The position numbers and the translations under genes were made by a program. Positions 26,230 through 51,392 of a stretch of 64,000 bases of DNA are shown in pieces (within the stretch, counting starts at the first letter, position 1; every line of letters begins with the position of its first letter). The notes below the pieces were generated by a model. That model was given only the letters and a program-made list of their open reading frames with translations, had not been told where the DNA came from and searched no databases. Origin of the DNA: Sabellastarte sp. h YS-2021 (lineage: Eukaryota; Annelida; Polychaeta; Sabellida; Sabellidae); contig OZ024938.1 of NCBI GenBank assembly GCA_964017235.1, positions 61,619,816 to 61,683,815 on the forward strand, written 5' to 3'.

Positions 26230-28276
26230 CCCAGCAGGCACACGCCTTGAAATGTTGTTGATTTAGAGTTGAAAACAGGTCCTGACGTTGAAATGCACAT
26301 TATCAACTACTAAATCTAAGTTCGTTTTCTGACATGAAAAAGTAGTGATATTTTGACCAGAAATCATGGTGATTTTTGGTTGAAAAATTGACACTGACAC
26401 AATTTCAACACTATTTCAAAGCTGGATTTCTGACTGGAAAAAGTAGTGATACTTCACAAAAAATCACCACTAAATCAAGTAAAATTCTTTTTCTAGAGGG
26501 TGATATAGTGATTAAGTCTAACTTTTTGAAAGAACTATTATTGCAATAGTTTTTGAATTTGTAGGTACTTGTAAAGCAAAGACTAATTTTTAAAGATTAT
26601 TAAGATGATGATGATTATGTACTTGCAGCTTTTGTACTTGCATGTACTTGTAGCTTTTATCCACTCTCCTTATTAATTTATAGCAACAACAAAACTGATG
26701 CAGCCAAATATAATTTTTATAATTTATAATTATATTTTGATTAATGCAATTCTTGATAATTAAAAAAACATTTTGAAGTCAAACTTATCTTAAATTAAAA
26801 AAAGGTAAATTCAAACTAATTCATCAAAACTTAGTAATTTGAATTTGTTTCTCCCATACACAATTACCCTGGTAACTAGTTTTCAGTTTGCAAGTTTACA
26901 CTGAAAAGTCCTCTATACAGAGAACCTAAGCTATAACATTTTATCACACAACAGTGAGGTTGGGGGGGGGGGGGGGTCCTGGTTTTTCTTATCTGTACCC
27001 TGCTACACAGAACATTAGGCCTGTGACTAAAAGTAATTAGATAACACAGCAGGGGTGGAGGTGGGGGTTTACCCTTGCTCAATTTGCATGCATGGTGTTT
27101 ACTTCCTCAGGTCTGTTTTTTGTGGTCAGAACTGACAACTAATTAAGGTGGGGAGTAATGGGTGGAGTTCTACAAATGTGGCTTTTCTTGTGTTTTTTTC
27201 AGTATATATGACAAAGTATCTGAACTGAGCATTGTGGCTTTGCTACATAATTATAGCTTCTTTATAATTACAATATAATTATAGCCAAATTAATAAAACA
27301 TTTAAAAGAAACTGATTGGATAAAATACTGAAGATATAAATAATGTCACAGTTGTTTGTTATTTACAAAGAAAAAAATTTATTTTAAATTTTCACAAAAA
27401 GAATTTCAATTGAAGGCTCTGAATAATACCGGTCCTATTAATAACATAAAAATGGATATCTAGTTGGAAAATATGGATTTCAATTATATTTGAAAGCTGA
27501 TGCAAAATTATGTGTTATTACAATGTCATCAGAAATAGAATATGGAATATACAATGATTCATGAAAACATGTCATCTTGGAAGAATTAATTACTTTGAAG
27601 ATGTATCCAAATTGTAAAATATGCATGTGGATAGTTATTGTATAATATTATTAAGAAGCTATAATTATGACATACAAGCTACAATGATTCAAATAAAGAA
27701 GACAGTGTAAACAACCTGATTTCACCCATTGAATTCAACCCTATTTCATACATTGGATTCAACCAAAAACAGTTTGCAAAATCTACACGTATTTCAACCA
27801 GATTTCACCCACTGAATTCAACCTGATTTCACCAATTGAATTCAACCTGATTTCACTGGTTGGATCCAACCAAAAACGGTTTGCAAAATCTACACGTATT
27901 TCAACCAGATTTCACCCACTGAATTCAACCTGATTTCACCGATTGAATTCAACCTGATTTCACTGGTTAAATCCAACCAAAAACGGTTTGCAAAATCTAC
28001 ACGTATTTCAACCAGATTTCACCCACTGAATTCAACCTGATTTCACCGATTGAATTCAACCTGATTTCACTGGTTGGATCCAACCAAAAACGGTTTGCAA
28101 AATCTACACGTATTTCAACCAGATTTCACCCACTGAATTCAACCTGATTTCAACGTTGGTTTCAACATGATTTCACCGGTTGGATCCAACTAAAAACGGT
28201 TTGCAAAATCTACACGTATTTCAACCAGATTTCTACGTTGGATCCAACCAGATTTCAAAGTTGCATGCCTGCTGGG
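26230..28276. mobile_element. 2.05-kb DNA element, TIR CCCAGCAGGCA, 2-bp TSD AT (copy 1)
   Basis: Ends CCCAGCAGGCACACGCC and the complement of CCCAGCAGGCATGCAAC, continuing into CTTGAAAT on both sides; AT flanks at 26228-26229 and 28277-28278. Contents: subterminal GTTGATTT/TTTCAACACT motifs, an AT-rich core, a G-run (26959-26976) and four 107-bp tandem units (anchors 27796, 27902, 28009, 28116) rich in CAACCTGATTTCAC. No ORF recognised. An ISL2EU-like origin is possible (2-bp AT target), but that is inference. The insertion splits a copia-like fossil. Confidence 0.8.
27718..28260. repeat. 107-bp tandem repeat inside the DNA element
   Basis: Unit built from AACCTGATTTCAC, GGTTGGATCCAACC and AAAACGGTTTGCAAAATC blocks; many are themselves short inverted repeats (TTGAATTCAA, GGTTGGATCCAACC). 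About four units here, little more than one in the copy at 51,170-51,360. Confidence 0.8.
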
Positions 28277-38639: not shown

Positions 38640-39270
38640 AATTTTCTTGTGAGATGGAGGCACATGTAGAAGTGACAACAAGCAAGAGGCACTTTAATGT
38701 TTGATTGCAATACTTTTAAAGACAAAAGGCATTTGCTCATTTTAGTAGCTATTACTCTGCCATCCAAAGTGCTACAGTTCTGCAACTTTACTATGTAGTA
38801 GATCAACCCAAAGTAGGTGAAGGACATATTTAGAAGAAATTGCCTATCTGTAACACTTTTAGAGATAAAAGACATTCACTCATTTTAGTGGCTCTTACTC
38901 TGCCATCCAAAGAGCTACAGTTCTGCAACTTGCCCAAAAGTAGGTGAAGGACTTACTTAGAAGAAATTGTCTATGTGCAATACTTTTAAAGATAAAAGGA
39001 ATTTACTCATGTTAGTAGCTGTTACTCCGCTATGCAGAAGAGCTACAGTTGTGCAACTTCACTATGTGGTAGATCACCCCAAAGTAGGTGTACGACTTAT
39101 TTAGAAGAAATTGCCTATCCAAAATACTTTTAAAGATAAACGGAATTTACTCATTTTAGTAGCTATTACTCAGTTATGCAAAGAGCTACAGTCGTGCAAC
39201 TTCACTATGTGGCAGATCACCCAAAAGTAGGTGAATGACTTATTTAGAAGAAATTGCCCATCTGCAATAC
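38640..39270. repeat. 144-bp tandem repeat A
   Basis: AGAAGAAATTG anchors at 38832, 38959, 39103 and 39247. The unit contains AGAGCTACAGT, GCAACTTCACTATGTGG and AAAGTAGGTGAA blocks that recur in diverged form in the 321-bp unit. Confidence 0.8.
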
Positions 39271-39288
39271 TTTTACAGATAAAAGACT

Positions 39289-39610
39289 CCAAAAATTGAA
39301 CCATTTCTTCCTTTTACCTTTCCAGATATATCCTCAAAATTTCATCGAAATCCATCCATACGTTTTTGAGTTATCTGTCTTTAAAAATCACATTTCATGG
39401 ATCCAGGAGATCCAGACAGTCATCCGGATCACTCCAAAAATTGAGTCATTTTTCCTTTTACCTTTTCAGACATATACTGAAAATGTCATCGAAACCCGTC
39501 CATAAGTTTTTCAGTTATCTGTCTTTAAAAAATACATTTCACTGATCCAGAGGATCCAGATAGTGATCCGGAACACACCAAAAATTGAATCATTTCTTCC
39601 TTTTACCTTT
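39289..39610. repeat. 144-bp tandem repeat B
   Basis: CCAAAAATTGA anchors at 39289, 39433 and 39578; contains TTCTTCCTTTTACCTTT, GATCCAG and GTGATCCGGA. Not similar to repeat A despite equal length. Confidence 0.75.
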
Positions 39611-39618
39611 TGAGACAT

Positions 39619-40800
39619 ATGAACAACATATTTGAAAAGATTAGCCTAACTTCAATACTTTTTAAGATATTTCACATTTACCTCTGTCATTATTTCGCTA
39701 CAAATAACAAAACAGCTATTACTCACTTATGGCATACTATGAAACTCCAAACTATATGTCATCTTATAGTTAAGGACAAAGTAGCTGAACAACATATTTT
39801 AGGAAAATACTGTAACTGCAAGAGTTTTGGAGTTACAAAGGGTTTACTCAATGGTAAGAATTTTAAAGTAGCTATTTCTCAGCTGTACAATGTGGGACAG
39901 CTCTGAAACTTTACCATGTGATAGCTTACCCAAAACTAGATGAACAACATATTTGAAAAGATTAGCCTAACTTTAATACTTTTTAAGATATTTCACATTT
40001 ACCTCTGTCATTATTTTGCTACAAATAACAAAATAGCTATTACTCACTTATGGCATGCTATGAAACTCCAAACTCTATGTCATCTTATAGTTAAGGACAA
40101 AGTAGCTGAACAACATATTTTAGGAAAACACTCTAACTGCAATAGTTTTAGAGTTACAATGGCTTTACTCAACAGTCAGAATTTCAAAGTAGCTATTACT
40201 CAGCTATCCAAGGTGCAACAGGTCTGAAACCTTACTATGTGATAGCTTACCAAAAAGTAGATGGACAACATATTTGAAAAGATTTCCCTAACTTTAATAC
40301 TTTTGAAGATATTTGACATTTACTTCTTTTGTTATTTAGCTACAAATGAGAAAATAGCTATTAGTCACTTATGGCATGCAATAGAACCCCAAACTATGTA
40401 CCATCTTATAGCTAAGGACAAAGTAGCTGAACAACATATTTTAGAAAAACACTCTAACTGCAGTAGTTTTGGAGTTACAATGGCTTTACTCTACAGTCAG
40501 AATTCCAAAGTAGCTATTACTCAGCTATCCAAGGTACAACAGGTCTGAAACTTTACTATGTGATAGCTTACCAAAAAGTAGATGGACAACATATTTGAAA
40601 AGATTTCCCTAACTTTAATACTTTTGAAGATATTTGACATTTACTTCTTTTGTTATTTAGCTACAAATGAGAAAATAGCTATTAGTCACTTATGGCATGC
40701 AATAGAACCCCAAACTATGTACCATCTTATAGCTAAGGACAAAGCTGAACAACATATTTCAAGAAAAAACTCTAACTGCAATACTTTTTGAGTTATGAGT
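39619..40800. repeat. 321-bp tandem repeat, about 3.7 units
   Basis: Units start at 39619, 39940, 40261 and 40582, exactly 321 bases apart. Since 321 is a multiple of 3, each unit carries the same open frame of about 95 codons (MNNIFEKISLT... or MDNIFEKISLT...). Internally each unit is a dimer: GAACAACATATTT and GCTATTACTCA each occur twice. No known domain; coding is doubtful. Confidence 0.85.
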
Positions 40801-41051
40801 CCTGTACTCAAAGTAGCTAAAATTGCTATTACTCACTTATCTTTAGGCCCAAGTCCACAAAACCCAAAAAAATTTTCAAGGGCATGACAATTAATTTACA
40901 AAAAATCTGTAGCTGTAGCAGTTTTGTAGAAATCTGCGTGACACACTAACGCACACACCCACGCACAGGATGCATTTTATAATCTCCCTCCCAGGCTAAA
41001 GCCTGGCGGGAGATAACAATACAGTGCGCATGTTGTTGCGTACATTTAGCT

Positions 41052-41228
41052 TAGGCCATAAATGGACGAGCATCGATAATAGAGAACACAGCAATACAGA
41101 CAAAATATAGTGCGACAAACAGGCATATCAAAATCACATTTATAATAATATTTATTGAATTAATAATGAAACCGGTCTTTATAATAGAAATAAAGTCCTC
41201 ATGCTGTGCTCGTCCATTATCCGCCGGA
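41052..41228. mobile_element. MITE-like palindrome, ends ATGGACGAGCA
   Basis: AAATGGACGAGCA on the left and TGCTCGTCCATTAT on the right are inverted; between them is the CCGGTCTTTATAATAGAAAT block shared with 6895-6920. Confidence 0.45.
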
Positions 41229-41284
41229 AGTACTGTCCTTTTTCATAGCGGTCATAAAGTACTCACCCTCGCACTTATTTCTAC

Positions 41285-41465
41285 AACAAAATGGGCGCTC
41301 ACTGGTATTTCCGGTTTGCAGTAAACATAGCCGATAATAGAGATATATTGTCAAAATACATCACTTTCAAAGAAATGTTCTCCAGTATATTCAAAGCATT
41401 AATTTTGTTGAATGTCATTTGATAATTTGGTTGAAAAACATAAACTAAACCTCCAAATATAACAT
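41285..41465. mobile_element. Fragment of the GTGGCTTTCTACC MITE family
   Basis: Matches 48670-48860 over nearly its whole length (GCCGATAATAGAGATATATT, TACATCACTTTCAAAGAAAT, TGTCATTTGATAATTTGGTT). Both TIRs are missing. Confidence 0.6.
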
Positions 41466-41467
41466 AA

Positions 41468-42880
41468 ATCTAATCTAATCTAATCTACTGCTTTGCAGGC
41501 GCAATATCTTCCCACAAAGGGGAACTCAGTCCGCTAATTGTGCAAAATCATTATCATAGTGGGAGTCGAGGGGCATTCAGGGTCGGTAATCCAGAATTGT
41601 GGGTGTGACCAGGAGGGAAGAAGACTAAGTTGGGAAACTAGAGTTGAAGAGATGGATTTTGAGATGTTTCCTAAAAGATGCGACACTGTTTCTTACATGA
41701 AAGAGGAAAGAGTAACAAAGGACTGGAGCATAGTGACTGAAAGAATTAGAGAAGTGTTTGATTGATTTGTGAACTCTACGGTCAAAAGTGGGGGTTTGAA
41801 GGAACTTGAGTTTGGGGGTGCTTCGCCTTGTATTTTTGGAAGAGGTGTAGGGGTGAATTAATTCTCTTACGTAAACTGGCTGACCTTGGTTGAGAATTTT
41901 GTATGTAACGAGGCCAATTTAAATTGTAACCTGTACCTGACTGGGAGCCAATGGAGTTTTTTAGTCGAGGGGTAATGTGAGAGAATTTGGAGGAATGGGT
42001 GACAACCCTGCAGAGTGAGTTTTGGACTAGCTGCAATCTTTTTAACTCAAAATCAGTGAGCGATAAAAAGAGCGAATTGCAATAATCCAATCTGCTGCTC
42101 ACCAAAGCATTCCCTAACACAACTGATGTTTTAAGATCTAGAAGGGGACGAATTCTGTAGAGGTCTCTCGCATGAACTCTAGTGGATTACCTGTGACACG
42201 TGGTTTGAGAAATTGAAATTGGAGTCGAACACCACTCCGAGGTTCCTGACACTTTGTGCTGGTGAGACCTGATTTCCCAGAATATTGATAGGGAAGTGAG
42301 GGAGGAGTTGTTTACAATTTTTTGGTAGCCTATGAGAATAAACTCAGTTTTGTCTGGGTTAAGTTTTAATTTATTTGTAAACATGCAATTTTGAATGTCG
42401 TTTAGGCAGTTCTTTAGTTTTTGTATAGAGTGAGAGAAATTTGCTGGTGAGAGTGTTATGTATAACTGGGCGTCATCGACGTAAAAGTGGTAGTTAATAC
42501 TACTGCTCAGCTACACAAGTTTGTTGCCTACCGAAGTTTGTCACTTGCATTTTTTGACAATATAAAAGCCTCTTCACAATTATCTATCCTTGTACAGTTG
42601 TACATTATCATTATTAGTATGTATTTCATTTGTTTTGGTATCAATATTGCTTATCCTTAACAATTTTTAAGGTGGGTGACGAACTTGGGTAGTGAACGAA
42701 CTTGGGTAGCTGAGCAGTACTGTGGGAATGAATGATTGACTCGATTGGGTTAGTGTAGAGAGAGAAAAGAAGTGGATCAAGGATGGAGCCCTGAGGGACT
42801 CCATACTGGAGCACAGCAGGATGCGAGAGTGTATACTACCTACCTTGACCGAGTGTGCCCTTGTGTATGATTTAACCTTA
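41468..42880 (-). mobile_element. L2/CR1-type LINE remnant
   Basis: Minus-strand RT pieces in order: QYGVPQGSILDPLLFSLYTN (near 42.8 kb), FYVDDAQLYI (near 42.48 kb), LKLNPDKTEFILIGYQK and SRLDYCNSLFLSLTDFELKR then LQLVQNSLCR. The 3' end is followed by a TAGATTAGATTAGATTAG microsatellite (41468-41490 on the plus strand as TAATC), a usual tail for this group. A MITE (42503-42717) and decay split the ORF, and the 5' side is cut by the RTE element at 42880. Confidence 0.8.
42503..42717. mobile_element. TA-flanked palindromic MITE, family CTGCTCAGCCAGTG, copy 2
   Basis: 215 bp; TIR CTGCTCAGCTACACAAGTTT and the complement of CTGCTCAGCTACCCAAGTTC, with TA at 42501-42502 and 42718-42719. Inserted in the L2-type RT next to the catalytic motif. 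The subfamily differs from 16072-16288 after CTGCTCAGC. Confidence 0.85.
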
Positions 42881-45589
42881 CCTTACCTTAATTCTCTCTG
42901 TGCCAGGAGGCACACAAGGCTCCAACATCCTTCTTCCATTGTTGCCGATCTGTGGCTGCACGGCGTGCCAGGTTCCATGTGCCCCAGCCAGCACTGTTTC
43001 TCTCCACCTCCACCATTCTTCACCAGTTGTTTTTGGGTGGCCTCTTTTCCTTCTCCCTTCTGGTGTCCATCCAAGGGCCACAGCACAATCATCTCGCTGA
43101 TCCTTCATTAGGACATGCCCTATCCAGCTCTTCCTTCTCACCTCTTCGCTAACCCTGTCCATCTCTGCTGCCTCTAAGACCGTTGCATTTGAGATGTGTT
43201 GCTGCCACCTGACCTTCAGTATCTTTCTCAGACATTTGTTCTGAAAAGTGTCCAGCTTTTCCTCTTCTCCCTTTGTCAGCTTCCAGGTCTCACATCCATA
43301 AAGCAGGATTGACAGTACCAGGCACTTAAAGAGGGAGACTTTGGTTTTCCTGCTGATGTCGCTGGCTTGCCAGATGTTGGATATTTGTTTCAACTGTGCA
43401 CTGGCTAGGGCTATTCTCCTCCTGACGTCCACTGTGCCTCCTCCCTCTTTTGTCATGTTGGCCCCCAGATATGTGAAGCTTTCTACTTCCTCTACTTCAA
43501 TTCCCCGCACTCTCAGTTTCTCGTCACTCCTGCTGTTGGCCTTCATAACTTTATATTTCTTGTCATTCAGCTTCAGGACAACTTTTGCAGCATTTACTTC
43601 AAGCCTTGATGTTTTCTGTTGTAGATGGTTCATGGCAGACGAAAGGAGAGCCAGATCATCTGCAAAATCAAGGTCTTCCAGCATTGTTGTAAAATTCCAC
43701 CTGATTCCAGTTCTTTCGCCAACACCGCATTACCCAGTCAATCGCAATTCGAGGAAGAGCAATCCTGACATGCAGCAGCCCTGTTTCACCCCGGTCATCA
43801 CTGAGAACCACTCTGTTGTTACGCCTTCATCAATGACTGTGCACTGAAAATCCTCATAAAGGGCCTTGACCATCTGGACCATTTTTGTCGGGATTCCATA
43901 CTGGCGCATGATGATCCAAAGACTGTCTCTATGTATTGAATCAAAGGCCTTTTCAAAGTCGACAGAGTGTATATACAGAGTAGCATTCCATTCGTTGACT
44001 TGTTCTAAGATGTTTCTGAGGATGAATATCTGGTTGACAGTTCCTCTGCCTGTTCAAAAACTGGCTTGTTCCTTTCTGAGCGAAGAATCCATTTCTACTT
44101 GTATCCTGTTGATTAGGATCTTGCTGAGCACCTTGCTTGCCATAGGTAATAATGTGACTCCTCGCCAGTTTCCACACTCCTGTAGGTTGCCTTTCTTTGG
44201 AATTTTGTAAATAAATCCCTTTGTCCATTGCGTGGGAACTGTTTCCTTTTCCCAAATAAGGTCAAATATCCTTTTCAATTCAATGCTTGTTAGCTCTGGA
44301 TCTGCTCTGACCATCTCCGCAGTAATTTGGTCTGCTCCAAGGGCCTTTCCATTATTCAGAGTTTTCAGTGCATTTTTATTTCTTGCAACATTGGTGGCTC
44401 AGTTGAGATATCGAGCTCTTCTCCTTCTTCTTCCTGTGGTGGTTCTTCTGGTGCGTCTCTGTTTAGCACTTTCTGGAAATGCTCCTTCCATTTTTTCTTC
44501 CTGGCTTCCATGTTCTTCAGCAGCTCTCCATCCTTGCTCCTCACTGCAGCTAAATGTCTGTTGTTGTGGCCTGTCAGTTGTTTCACTATGCTGTAGAGTT
44601 CCTTCTGTCGGCCATTCTCTGCTGCTGCCTGAGCTCTCTGTGCCTTCTCTGCCACCCATCTCCTCTTGTATTCCCTGACATTTCTCTTCACCTCCCTGTC
44701 TTTCTCTTTGTATTCCTCCTTCATCCTGTTCTTGATTCTCTCTGAGCGTGTGCTGTCTATCCTGATCTTCGTTTCTTTCCTCTCATCTATCATTTTCCAG
44801 GTGCTGTCACTTATCCATGGTTTGCATCTCCCTTTCCCGAGTCCAAGTACTCCCTCTGCTGCACTGACATAGGCATTTCTTTGTTGTTTCCACACCTCTT
44901 CTATGTCCTCAGTCTCTGTCCTGTTCTCCTCCATCTTGCACCTCACTGACTCGCAGAACTTCTTCTTGGTTTCTTGACTTTCTTCATCCTTCAGCAGGGT
45001 TGAGATGAAAAACCCGCCCGGGTATTACCCGCCCGGGAAAACCCGGGAAATCCTGGGCTGGGCAATACTCCAAAAGTGGGCAATACTGGGCAATGCTATT
45101 TTTAAACCCAAATCTGGGGAAAAACCAATGCTGAAGTTTATTTAAGCTTCATAATACTCTAAACATGTGCAAAGTTTTATTATAAGTATATAACATATAA
45201 ATGGTAGTACATGAATACAATATTTAAATGGAATGAAAGATATCAGCACTGAATGAGTACATAAATGAAATTGTACATAACAACTTAGGCATTGGGGTCA
45301 TTTGAGGTTTAGAATAGCTCTACTTATTTCTATGCACTCACTGCCAGTGAAGCCATACTGTTAATGCAGTGCCTCAAAACCTTATTACTGACACGCCAGA
45401 GTTAAGCTGTCAAGCCAGAGTTTATACTACCTGATGATAGCCCTAGAATAGTGGGGTAAATAGTTTAATTGCAATCATGAAAGGGACAAGTATAAACCCC
45501 TCTTTTTTGTATTATATTTGAAAGTGACACCAGTAGCAAATATGTTTGATTGTTTATATATGCTAATGCACAGTTTTAATTCGGTGCGC

Positions 45590-45705
45590 AGAAAAAAAGC
45601 CTGGTGGAAAAAATGACAGTGGAAAGAAAGCCTGGTGGAAAAAATGACAGTGGAAAAAAAGCCTGGTGTGTTTTGAAAAACATGGAAAAAAAGCCTGGTG
45701 TTTTT
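45590..45705. repeat. Short tandem repeat GAAAAAAAGCCTGGTG
   Basis: Four copies of AAAGCCTGGTG spaced by AAAAAATGACAGTGGAAA-like segments inside the 2-kb hAT element. Confidence 0.75.
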
Positions 45706-45829
45706 TTTTTCTAAACATATTCACAATTAATGATGAAGTAGAACTGAACCATTAATTTATTATCTATGTATTATTTAAAACCTTCCATTACTGTCAAATG
45801 GATTGAGAAGTCTTTCAAGTACCTACTGT

Positions 45830-46270
45830 TAGTGCTGTAACGAGTTGACCGAAACTCGAGTCGTAACTCGGTGGGCGATATTTGGGACCACATCGATTTA
45901 CGTAATTTAAACTCGAGTTTTTAAGAAATAAATTATGATATACTAGTCTTGTTATAAAACCAGCACTTTTACAATTTATCTAACCATAAAGACAAAAAAT
46001 TCAATGAGCAATGGCCGTTTTTTTATTTCCTTATTTACGTGGATGTTCCATAATGTGCTCATACATACCTGTACAATTTAACCGGCAATAGAATATATTT
46101 CCTTGCAATAGAATGGTACTAAATACGTCAATGGCGGATCCCTTGATGACAATATTTGGACATTATTATTTTATTTATATTTGTGTCATTTACTCGAGTT
46201 CAACTCGAGTTCAACTCGCATCTAACAAGCGAGCGTCGATCTACAGAAATCACTGTTGATTACAGCTCTA
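45830..46270. mobile_element. hAT-type MITE, 441 bp, TSD CCTACTGT
   Basis: TIRs TAGTGCTGTAA / TTACAGCTCTA (one mismatch) with identical CCTACTGT at 45822-45829 and 46271-46278. The subterminal region carries AACTCGAGT motifs at both ends. Inserted into the 2-kb hAT element. Confidence 0.9.
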
Positions 46271-48179
46271 CCTACTGTGGACTTCAGTACAAGATAAATT
46301 AGACTAAAACCACTGGCTGGATATAGTTGCAATTAGTAATTTATACATCCCACAATAAGGTGTTCCACTGTTAGCCTGGGAAACAAACTTTAATTGCTAA
46401 TACAGAAGACCCTTTATAGTAAGGTAACAACAGAACACCAGAGCACACTTAAAATGAACTATTGTATCTACTGAGGATTGGCTCTTGAACATGGCAATAC
46501 CTACTTGCAATTAGTGACATATACATCCAGCATTTTCCTGGGAATCCAAACATAATTGCATGTTTAGAAAAAGTTTCAGTTCCTTAAGTGATATACTGAC
46601 ATTATTTTAAAACAATCTCTAAAAAGCAAATGAATTTTACATACTTTTGTATTCTATTTTGATCAAAATAAATTGTACTAGAAAAATAAATTCTAAGTAA
46701 CTATAAACATTTTTAGTCCAGTATAGTGGCTATTGCCTAGTAATGGTCATTATTACCCAGTTAGGAGAATTTTTTTTCTGACAGTATTATAATCTTTTAA
46801 AATATTGCCCAGTAAGAACAAGTTTTTAATCTGTGACAATATTATCACTTCTAATAGTCACAGACCATTTAATAGCACTAGTGCTCTTTATAAAGTAGTT
46901 AAAAATCTGTCTTTTTGAGTAATAAACCTATTAAGTCCAGTATTACCCGGTATTGCCCAGTAAAACCCGGGAAAACCCGGGTTTTCCCACTGGGCTGGGC
47001 AATACTCATAAAACCCGGGTTTTTCTCAACCCTGTCCTTCAGCAGATTAACATCGATCCTAGGCTTGACCTTGTTCTTGCTTCTGTGTATCTGAAGGCAT
47101 ATCTTGAAAGTAGTTCTCACTAGGTAGTGGTTGCTGTTGTTGTCCGTGCCTCTCTGTACCCGAGTGTCCTGTACAGATGATCTCCATTGCCCACTGATCA
47201 GGAGGTGGTCAATCTGATTGTTCACTCTCCCGTCTGCTGAGACCCACATTGCCTTATGAATGTCTTTGTGGGGAAACAGCGTTCCTGTTATTACAAGCCC
47301 AGTTGACAGAACTCGCATAGCGTCTCTCCTTTGTCATTCTGCGTTCCAAGTCCATGTTTACCCATCGTTCTCTCGTAGCCAGTGTTATCACTTCCTACCT
47401 TGGCATTTAGGTCACCCATGATGATGGTGATGTCGTTTCCACTGTTTCCTGGAGTTCCTGATACAATTGCTCCTTATCAACATCTTCCTTCTCATTGTGA
47501 GGGGCATAGACTTGTATGATGGCGATTCTTCTATACCTCGAGTAGAATCTGGCCATTATGATTCTCTTGTTGATAGGGGTCCACTCCATAAGCGATCATT
47601 CTGCTTGTTGGCTTATCATGATTTCAACCCCTCCCTCATGTACTTGCTCATCTCCACTGTAGATCAGTGCTTCTCCTTTCGCTGGCTTCATTCTTCCTGC
47701 TCCTGTCCATCTACACTCACTAATTCCTAGAATGTCCAGGTGGTACCCCTCCATCTCTTTCACTATCTGTGCTGTAGTTCCTCCTCTGTACATTGATTTA
47801 ACATTCCAATGCCCAATGGTGGACGTTGCTTTGGGACTTGCCAGAGATCTTGTCGGACGGTGAGCTTCCCGAAGGCTTTCACCCATCATTGTCATGGTGC
47901 CGGTGCTGGCGATACCCGCTCCTCCAAGGTTTTCATCTTGATTTGTAATGTCCGTAGTTTCTGTAACTAGCATCTTTTTTATAGGAGAAGGTAGTTAGCC
48001 TTCAGCCCAACCCCCAGTCTTAGAGGGCCAGGGTTTTCTGTCGGGGTTTCCTTCCCTTAGACTGTATTGGTCCACGTGCACAAGTGCAAACCCCCTATCT
48101 GCCACCCAGGGGATGCTCCTCTACCCTGTGCAGTCTCGGCGCGAGGGTATGATTTGAACCAGCTGTTAAATGTTAAATA

Positions 48180-48240
48180 TTCTCTTAAACACGGTGTTTA
48201 CTGGTAGAATGCCACTACAAGGAAAGATTATTGCAAAGAG
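48180..48240. mobile_element. End fragment of the GTGGCTTTCTACC MITE family
   Basis: CTTAAACACGGTGTTTACTG GTAGAATGCCACTA matches the right end of 48599-48903, with no left end nearby. Confidence 0.45.
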
Positions 48241-48598
48241 ATGTTAATATTGTCAAAAACATGCATGTGATAAACTTTATTCTAACATGACACGGATGTG
48301 TCAGTGATTCTGATTGGGTAAAAGACGAAATACTTCAAGAGTAAAATACAACTTAACCCTGTAGCTCCCTAATATCGCTCATTATGGTTCTCGTAACAAT
48401 AAACGTTTTTCCACAAAATTTGCAACAATTATTCATCTTAAAATAATTGGTCATGTTAGAATAGGAATAAGCCCCTCCAAAACCAGGGTATATGCAGAAT
48501 TTTAAAATGGTTTGAGGTTATAAACCCCGAAGGCAAAATTCTGCGCATACCCTGGTTTGGTCGGGGGTTATTCCTACAGTAAGCGACGGAGTTGGGTA

Positions 48599-48903
48599 GT
48601 GGTTTTCTACCAGTGAACGCCCACTTTATATATCTTTATTAGAGGTCAAGGACAAATGCTTCTATTTGCAAACAAAATGGACGTTCACTTGTATTTCTGG
48701 TTTGCGATAAACATGGCCGATAATAGAGATATATTGTCAAAATACATCACTTTCAAAGAAATGTTCTAAGGCAGATTTAAAGCATTAATTCCCTTGAATG
48801 TCATTTGATAATTTGGTTGAAGAAGAACATAAACTAAGCCTCCAAGTATAAGATAAACGTTAACTATTATCTTAAACACGGACGTTCACTGGTAGAAAGC
48901 CAC
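48599..48903. mobile_element. TA-flanked MITE, family GTGGCTTTCTACCAGTGAACG, complete copy
   Basis: 305 bp; left TIR GTGGTTTTCTACCAGTGAAC, right TIR the complement of GTGGCTTTCTACCAGTGAAC, TA at 48597-48598 and 48904-48905. Fragments at 15955, 19030, 36728, 41285 and 48180 belong to the same family. Confidence 0.85.
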
Positions 48904-49576: not shown

Positions 49577-51392
49577 CACAGCAGGCAAACGCCTTGAAAT
49601 GTCGTTGATTTAGAGTTGCACATTATCAACTACTAAATCTAAGTTAGTTTTCTGACATGAAAAAGTAGTGATATTTTAACCAGAAATCATGGTGATTTTT
49701 GGTTGAAAATTTGACACGGACACAATTTCAACACTATTTCAAAGCTGGATTTCTGACTGAAAAAAGTGGTGATACTTCATAAAAAAAAATCACCACTAAA
49801 TCAAGTTAGGTTTTTTAACATGAAATCTTAGTCATGTTATTGAACAGAAAACAGGTTGAATATTGGGAAATGAATGACTAGTAATCATTGATTGAAAATT
49901 CTTTTTCTAGAGGGTGATATAATGATTAAGTCTAATTTTTTGAAAGAACTATTATTGCAATAGTTTTTAAATTTTTAGGTATTTGTAAAGCAAAGACTAA
50001 TTTTTAACAATTATAAAGATGATAAAGATTATGTGTGCATGTACTTGTAGCTTTTATCCATTCTCCTTGTTAATTTATAGCAACAACAAAACTGATGCAC
50101 CCAAATATAATTTTTATAATTTATAATTATATTTTGATTAATGCAATTCCTGATAATTAAAAAAAAACATTTTGAAGTCAAACTTATCTTAAATAAAAAA
50201 AAGATAAATTCAAACTTATTCATCAAAACTTAGTAATTTGAATTTGTTTCTCACATTCTCCCATACACAAATAACTAGTTTTCAGTTTGCAAGTTTACAC
50301 TGAAAACTTCTCTATGCAGAACCTAACCTATAACATTTTATCACTCAACAGTGAGGTTGGGGGGGGGGGGGGGGGGGGTCCTGGATTTTGTTATCTGTAC
50401 CCTGCTACACAGAACATTAGACCTGTGACTAAAAGTAATTACATAACACAGTAGGGGTGGAGGTGGGGGTTTACCCTTGCTCACTTCTTTAGGTCTGTTT
50501 TTTGTGGTCAGAACTGACAACTAATTAAGGTAGGGAGTAATGGGTGTAGTTCTACAAATGTGGCTTTTCTTGTGTTTTTTTTTTCAGTTTATATGACAAA
50601 GTTGTATGAGACAGAAGCATCTGAACTGAGCATTGTGGCTTTGCTACATGATTATAGCTCTTTATAATTACAATATAATTATAGCCAACTTAATAAAACA
50701 TTTAAAAGACTGATTGGATAAAATACTGAAGATATAAATAATGTCACAATTGTTTGTTATTTACAAAAAAAAAAAAATTATTTTAAAATTTCACAAAAAG
50801 AATTTTAATTGAAGGCACTGAATAATACCGGTCCTATTAATAACATAAAAATGGGTACCTAGTTGGAAAATATGGATTTACATATCTTGAGCAATTATAT
50901 TTGAAAGCTGATGCAAAATTATGTGTTATTACAATGTCATCAGAAATAGAATATTGAATATACAATGATTCATGAAAACATGTCATCTTGGAAAGAATTA
51001 ATTACTTTGAAGATGTATTAAAATTGTAAAATATGCATATGGATAGTTATTGTATAATATTATTAAGAAGCTATAATTATGACACACAAGCTACAATGAT
51101 TCAAATAAAGAAGACAGTGTAAACAACCTGATTTCACCCATTGAATTTAACCCTATTTCATACATTGGATTCAACCAAAAACAGTTTGCAAAATCTACAC
51201 GTATTTCAACCAGATTTCACCCATTGAATTCAACCAGATTTCACCCATTGAATTCAACCTGATTTCACCAATTGAATTCAACCTGATTTCACTGGTTGAA
51301 TCCAACCAAAAACGGTTTGCAAAATCTACACGTATTTCAACCAGATTTCTATGTTGGATTCAACCAGATTTCAAAGTTGCATCCCTGCTGGG
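49577..51392. mobile_element. 1.8-kb DNA element, TIR CCCAGCAGG, TSD AT (copy 2)
   Basis: Same family, order and orientation as 26230-28276, including the G-run (50357-50378) and CAACCTGATTTCAC units, but with fewer 107-bp units and one extra block near 49815-49895. AT at 49575-49576 and 51393-51394. The left TIR has one change (CACAGCAGG). Confidence 0.8.

Follow-up and report, generated by a model that had tools for sequence, protein, structure and literature searches.

RESULTS

The window analyzed here, a 64-kb stretch at C19:61619816-61683815 of an assembly of 1.786 Gb in 647 contigs, contains transposable elements set one within another. From outside to inside, these are a MITE that we call X, an L2/CR1-type LINE, an RTE-like LINE, a 2,040-bp hAT-type element, and a 441-bp hAT-type MITE. 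The L2 has an overall span of 41470-48163, and the RTE-like LINE lies inside it at ~42874-48146; both are 5'-truncated. A further MITE, flanked by TA, sits in the L2. In the features below, numbered from the first base of the window, the positions given for terminal motifs and duplications are exact, and some outer edges of the nest are good only to a few bases.

41285..41469, plus strand: left half of MITE X (level 0), 86-91% identical to six fetched X copies (L069-L074)
41470..42502, minus strand: L2/CR1-type LINE (level 1), 3' part with the TCTAA-type repeat tail leftmost, from paralogues and RVT_1 matches
42503..42717, no strand: TA-flanked MITE of 215 bp, inverted ends of ~42 bp that are 86% complementary (inverted repeat I1)
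42718..42873, minus strand: continuation of the L2, including the left RTE duplication GTATGATTT (42865-42873), from paralogues and RVT_1
42874..44994, minus strand: RTE-like LINE (level 2), 3' part with reverse transcriptase and ACCTT-repeat tail, from RVT_1 and DUF6451
44995..45829, no strand: left part of the hAT-type element (level 3), whose last bases are the left MITE duplication CCTACTGT
45830..46270, no strand: hAT-type MITE of 441 bp (level 4, youngest), copies 98-100% identical with 8-bp TSDs
46271..47034, no strand: hAT-type element, right part, from terminal motifs and copies
47035..48146, minus strand: RTE-like LINE, 5' part (endonuclease region), from RTE copies at 90-93%
48147..48163, minus strand: L2 remnant right of the RTE, made of GTATGATTT and the 8 bp GAACCAGC, from 19 printed L2 relatives
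48167..48217, plus strand: right half of MITE X, opening with TAAAT (48167-48171) and closing with CCAC and TA

Each component of the nest occurs as a dispersed repeat in the 1.786-Gb genome, which also supplied every paralogue; for comparison we took the copies that match the window best (for X, a neighboring X copy), not a random sample. At most 40 of the best candidates were scored per segment. The L2 segment yielded 6,239 first-look candidates, the stretch that contains the neighboring MITE X 5,274, the hAT 2,825, and two RTE segments 22 and 64, the latter segment also containing part of X; these numbers are not copy numbers. In the join test, the 25+25 bp flanking an insertion were joined, matched without gaps to a paralogue, and compared with shifted joins.

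The two innermost insertions

The 441-bp MITE is flanked by the 8-bp TSD CCTACTGT (45822-45829 and 46271-46278) and has terminal inverted ends, TAGTGCTGTAA and TTACAGCTCTA, as expected of a hAT-type MITE. Its best 40 scored copies (own included), out of 2,228 first-look candidates, are 98-100% identical. The seven copies fetched from among these 40 measure 440-441 bp, and all seven have perfect, mutually different 8-bp TSDs; compared with them, the window MITE has no private change. The hAT copy L010 (C3) lacks the MITE, and its two sides are 98.3% and 98.8% identical to the window. Against this copy, the joined flanks scored 49/50 with one CCTACTGT, and joins shifted by 3-9 bp scored at most 34.

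The host of this MITE measures 2,040 bp (44995-47034) between two exact copies of the 8-bp TSD TCCTTCAG (44987-44994 and 47035-47042), with which the 3' part of the RTE closes and its 5' part opens. When the best pair of end motifs was scored at each of 28 loci of the family, 15 gave a perfect 8-bp TSD, 3 gave one with a single mismatch, 1 gave no match, and 9 had no pair of ends; the length of these duplications is that of the hAT superfamily. The longest stop-to-stop frame lying wholly within the element has 81 aa, and for lack of any longer one the element looks nonautonomous. It is absent from all four RTE copies that were covered on both sides (C18, C3, C6, and C14). The letters of C18 and C3 have one TCCTTCAG, and the contiguity of C6 and C14 comes from hit coordinates only. 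The join scored 41 and 42 of 50 (C18 and C3), versus at most 35 for shifted joins. Both inner insertions described in an earlier note on this DNA, that of the 441-bp MITE into the hAT and that of the 2,040-bp hAT into the RTE, are therefore upheld by exact 8-bp TSDs and by empty paralogues.

No second full 2,040-bp copy was found: L010 covers 45055-46514, without the MITE, and stops at another CAGGG-type sequence, and L083 and L084 have interior parts in common only. As a side observation, most fetched copies of the family do not share the middle of the hAT (45586-46715). Its two ends, of about 590 and 300 bp, are combined elsewhere with different interiors, and separate copies exist of the right part of its interior (229 first-look candidates, again not a copy number).

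The two LINEs and the TA-flanked MITE

The 3' end of the L2 is conserved, the match to paralogues starting at 41455-41473 in all 29 fetched loci and TCTAA-type repeats being present in 18 of 19 printed copies. RVT_1 was matched in 42190-42510 (E 2.9e-5) and in 42644-42835 (E 0.01), both below the curated Pfam cut-off, and the scan of 41785-42186 gave no match even at E 10. The LINE also has the motifs VPQGSI and YVDDAQLY, which we take as assigning it to the L2/CR1 group, so that the putative clade name rests partly on these motifs and partly on the RVT_1 matches.

The TA-flanked MITE lies in this LINE between CTGCTCAGC, at 42503, and GCTGAGCAG, ending at 42717, and the L2 part to its left takes in the first TA of the duplication. 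Its best 40 scored copies (own included) came out of 1,251 first-look candidates. The MITE is absent from all 29 printed stretches of L2 paralogues, whose letters have a single TA at the site, and it has both a TA duplication and TIRs. The join scored 39-45/50 in 21 of the 29 loci, and shifted joins at the best six loci reached at most 35. Among the loci scoring lower, L052, L053, L054, and L060 depart from the L2 short of the site, a deletion spans the site in L057, and the rest have small indels. This MITE had been proposed as an insertion into the L2, which the paralogues without it confirm; it is ordered only against its host and stands outside the linear series of RTE, hAT, and inner MITE.

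In the RTE-like LINE, a reverse transcriptase domain was recognized by RVT_1 on three pieces (E 7.3e-10 at 43733-44053, 3.7e-5, and 5.2e-4), the first being the single piece of both LINEs above the Pfam cut-off. DUF6451 was matched below the cut-off in 42881-43729 (E 5.2e-5). Of three pieces scanned, one had a weak Exo_endo_phos match, also below the cut-off (E 0.093), and the first endonuclease piece gave no match even at E 10. We take the motifs GDLNAK and LDILGISECRW to resemble those of RTE endonucleases, and the clade name suggested here draws partly on such motifs and partly on RVT_1. The element has the short tandem-repeat 3' tail, the 5' truncation, and the target duplication of an RTE. 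The ACCTT-type tail occurs in the window copy and in three of six other printed copies (L003, L006, and L007), and the C18 copy, which has a duplication of 10-11 bp, breaks off near window position 48093. Matches of at least 450 bases are 87-93% identical. Altogether, the family names given earlier hold as far as tested, both LINEs having RVT_1 matches and the two hAT-type families 8-bp TSDs.

One RTE copy elsewhere (G000:C3 126749106-126752612) matches the query at 1-227 and 220-788, with ~2.7 kb between the two and an 8-base overlap in the query. This copy seems to have an insertion of its own at a different site, near window positions 47254-47261, where 8 bp would be duplicated.

The RTE insertion site in the L2

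The RTE is flanked by GTATGATTT on the left (42865-42873) and on the right (48147-48155). The earlier note had read a 13-bp duplication here; the insertion into the L2 stands, supported by a 17-bp match to the L2, but the duplication is safely only 9 bp, as the left AACC runs into the ACCTT tail. Since GAACCAGC directly follows the right GTATGATTT and matches the L2 relatives, the L2 ends 8 bp past the duplication. With so little of the L2 beyond it, this level of the nest therefore rests on the 17-bp match. The gapless 25+25 bp join, which fitted for the MITE in the hAT, the hAT in the RTE, and the TA-flanked MITE in the L2, failed for the RTE in the L2, the best score being 30/50 with shifted joins of up to 30; the joining of flanks that the earlier note had expected was thus obtained at three boundaries but not at this one. 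Such a failure is expected where the window lacks a short piece to the left of the site and the L2 ends to its right.

One could argue instead that the RTE landed at the edge of the L2 and not inside it, the L2 having ended at ~42862-42873 and the right-hand match being due to chance or to target sequence. The failed gapless join would fit this view, as would the mere 8 bp matching the L2 past the duplication and the alignment to paralogues, which stops at 42862 in 16 of 29 loci. However, these alignments stop at a small indel, after which the relatives continue in the L2. GTATGATTTGAACCAGC runs on uninterrupted at the site in all 19 printed L2 relatives, chosen from the 29 fetched loci as those whose alignment reaches 42856 or further, with 11 exact and 8 having one or two changes. 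Moreover, eight extra matching bases would arise by chance about once in 65,000 (by arithmetic). We thus consider a landing at the L2 edge very improbable and retain the insertion of the RTE within the L2.

An older MITE outside the L2

The L2 is itself flanked by a 5-bp target duplication, TAAAT (41465-41469 and 48167-48171), and 3 bp (48164-48166) lie between the L2 remnant and the right half of X. Both halves of X align lengthwise to the six fetched X copies. When the left half was joined to 48172 onward, all six gave 40-44/50, and shifted joins gave at most 33. The copies L069, L072, and L073 start with TAGTGG and finish with CCACTA, and a neighboring complete X copy (~48599-48903) has 27-bp inverted ends and a K2P of 0.058 versus the majority of its six relatives. 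Read from these letters, X is putatively a TA-flanked MITE. It is older than the L2 inserted in it. The left end of the old X copy was not recognizable where a repeat of ~270 bp (~41016-41287) abuts; nine further places match this repeat, which adjoins the old X half, at 82-84%.

The linear nest has five levels because the L2 was itself inserted in X. The four levels of the nest previously claimed are all present, but the fifth, outer one had been missed.

Private divergence of the nested copies

The terminal branch of the window copy (FastTree) falls from 0.078 for X to 0.046 for the L2, 0.025 for the RTE, 0.004 for the hAT, and 0.000 for the inner MITE. These trees had 7, 30, 7, 30, and 8 rows, respectively, including the window and with none dropped, and the branch lengths are biased by the choice of relatives as best matches (for X, to the neighboring copy). 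K2P versus the majority of relatives was 0.081 [0.039-0.132] for the left part of X, 0.060 [0.045-0.078] for the L2, 0.025 [0.018-0.033] for the RTE, 0.035 [0.021-0.052] and 0.024 [0.010-0.045] for the two ends of the hAT, and 0.002 for the inner MITE. Without its nearest copy, L010, the hAT branch (both ends together) is 0.031, which exceeds the 0.025 of the RTE. Thus, the ages of RTE and hAT are separated by the nesting and not by divergence alone. The divergence check proposed in the earlier note came out accordingly: private divergence drops in the order of nesting, but K2P overlaps for RTE and hAT.

Three short segments depart from these values. For the right part of X, 48 sites gave 0.043 (interval, 0 to 0.113), below the L2, and the short 5' piece of the L2 gave 0.093 on 139 sites. 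The 5' segment of the RTE gave 0.063, as large as that of the L2, and was rejected for dating because two of its three rows (L006 and L008) are the same genomic copy.

DISCUSSION

We are highly confident that the nest is genuine and that its elements arrived by successive insertions in the order X, L2, RTE, hAT, and hAT MITE. The order from L2 to hAT MITE had been put forward earlier, and empty-site paralogues and divergence agree on it, although some measures overlap between RTE and hAT. What the analysis shows is that the elements are nested, that they have target duplications, that their sites are empty in paralogues, and that private divergence falls in the order of nesting. An assembly artefact, in which the nest would have been stitched from collapsed repeats, has next to no probability: every component is a repeat and the nest was read from the assembled sequence, but the inner boundaries have the target duplications proper to their element types, which mis-joins would not make.

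We propose a model with three kinds of insertion mechanism, in which target-primed reverse transcription would have placed a 5'-truncated L2/CR1-type LINE into the putatively TA-flanked MITE X, and a 5'-truncated RTE-like LINE would next have inserted 8 bp from the 5' end of the L2. A hAT-type transposase acting in trans could then have moved the nonautonomous-looking 2,040-bp element into the RTE, after which the 441-bp MITE found in that element would have come from a second hAT-type family. In a separate event, a TA-specific transposase could have brought the 215-bp MITE into the L2. We infer these mechanisms of transposition, and the enzymes acting in trans, from knowledge of the families.

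The ordering of transposon activity by insertions of one element in another is already established, as in the TinT method (PMC3014933), and no general view is changed by this locus. TinT, demonstrated with Alu elements of primates, uses genome-wide frequencies of nested pairs, and the present work instead checks, copy by copy, a single deep nest made of LINEs, hAT-type elements, and MITEs. Likewise, REANNOTATE (PMC2672092) and interruption analysis (PMC2517846) treat nested insertions as interruptions of older elements and are automated and genome-wide, unlike the reading of a single locus presented here. In bivalves, the accessible text of a transposon survey (PMC10294476) reports L2, CR1, RTE-X, and RTE-BovB lineages with recent LINE activity, and this text describes no nest of such a kind. 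Among the few papers that literature searches listed on nested transposable elements, MITEs, hAT, and RTE in bivalves, we found no description of this locus, which is not proof of absence.

A five-deep nest is an ordinary feature of repeat-rich genomes. In simulations of nesting, with element lengths and repeat fractions of our choosing and 300 runs per setting, the share of 64-kb windows with a depth of at least 5 was 0.00, 0.01, 0.03, 0.10, and 0.25 at 30, 40, 50, 60, and 70% repeats, respectively. A genome of 1.786 Gb holds ~28,000 such windows, and a hypothetical share of 1% would amount to some hundreds. The interest of the nest is rather that it puts repeat families of one animal genome in a relative order that can be checked, a paralogous sequence without the inner element existing for each step, and that it shows such nests to be findable by reading raw sequence.

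It is possible, and we advance it tentatively, that the family of the 441-bp MITE is moving now. If so, the top of the nest would be polymorphic between individuals, and the locus would record the history of five families, dated from within and still in progress.

Besides the nest, the window holds other repeats. An abundant one with internal inverted repeats lies at 48272-48582, the main matches of its best 40 scored copies (own aside) being 80-90% identical. Tandem units occupy 38709-40841, where the sequence matches itself over 911 columns at 91% identity with an offset of ~320 bp, and two copies of a 1.5-kb repeat within the window (49895-51373 and 26481-27938) are 88.5% identical.
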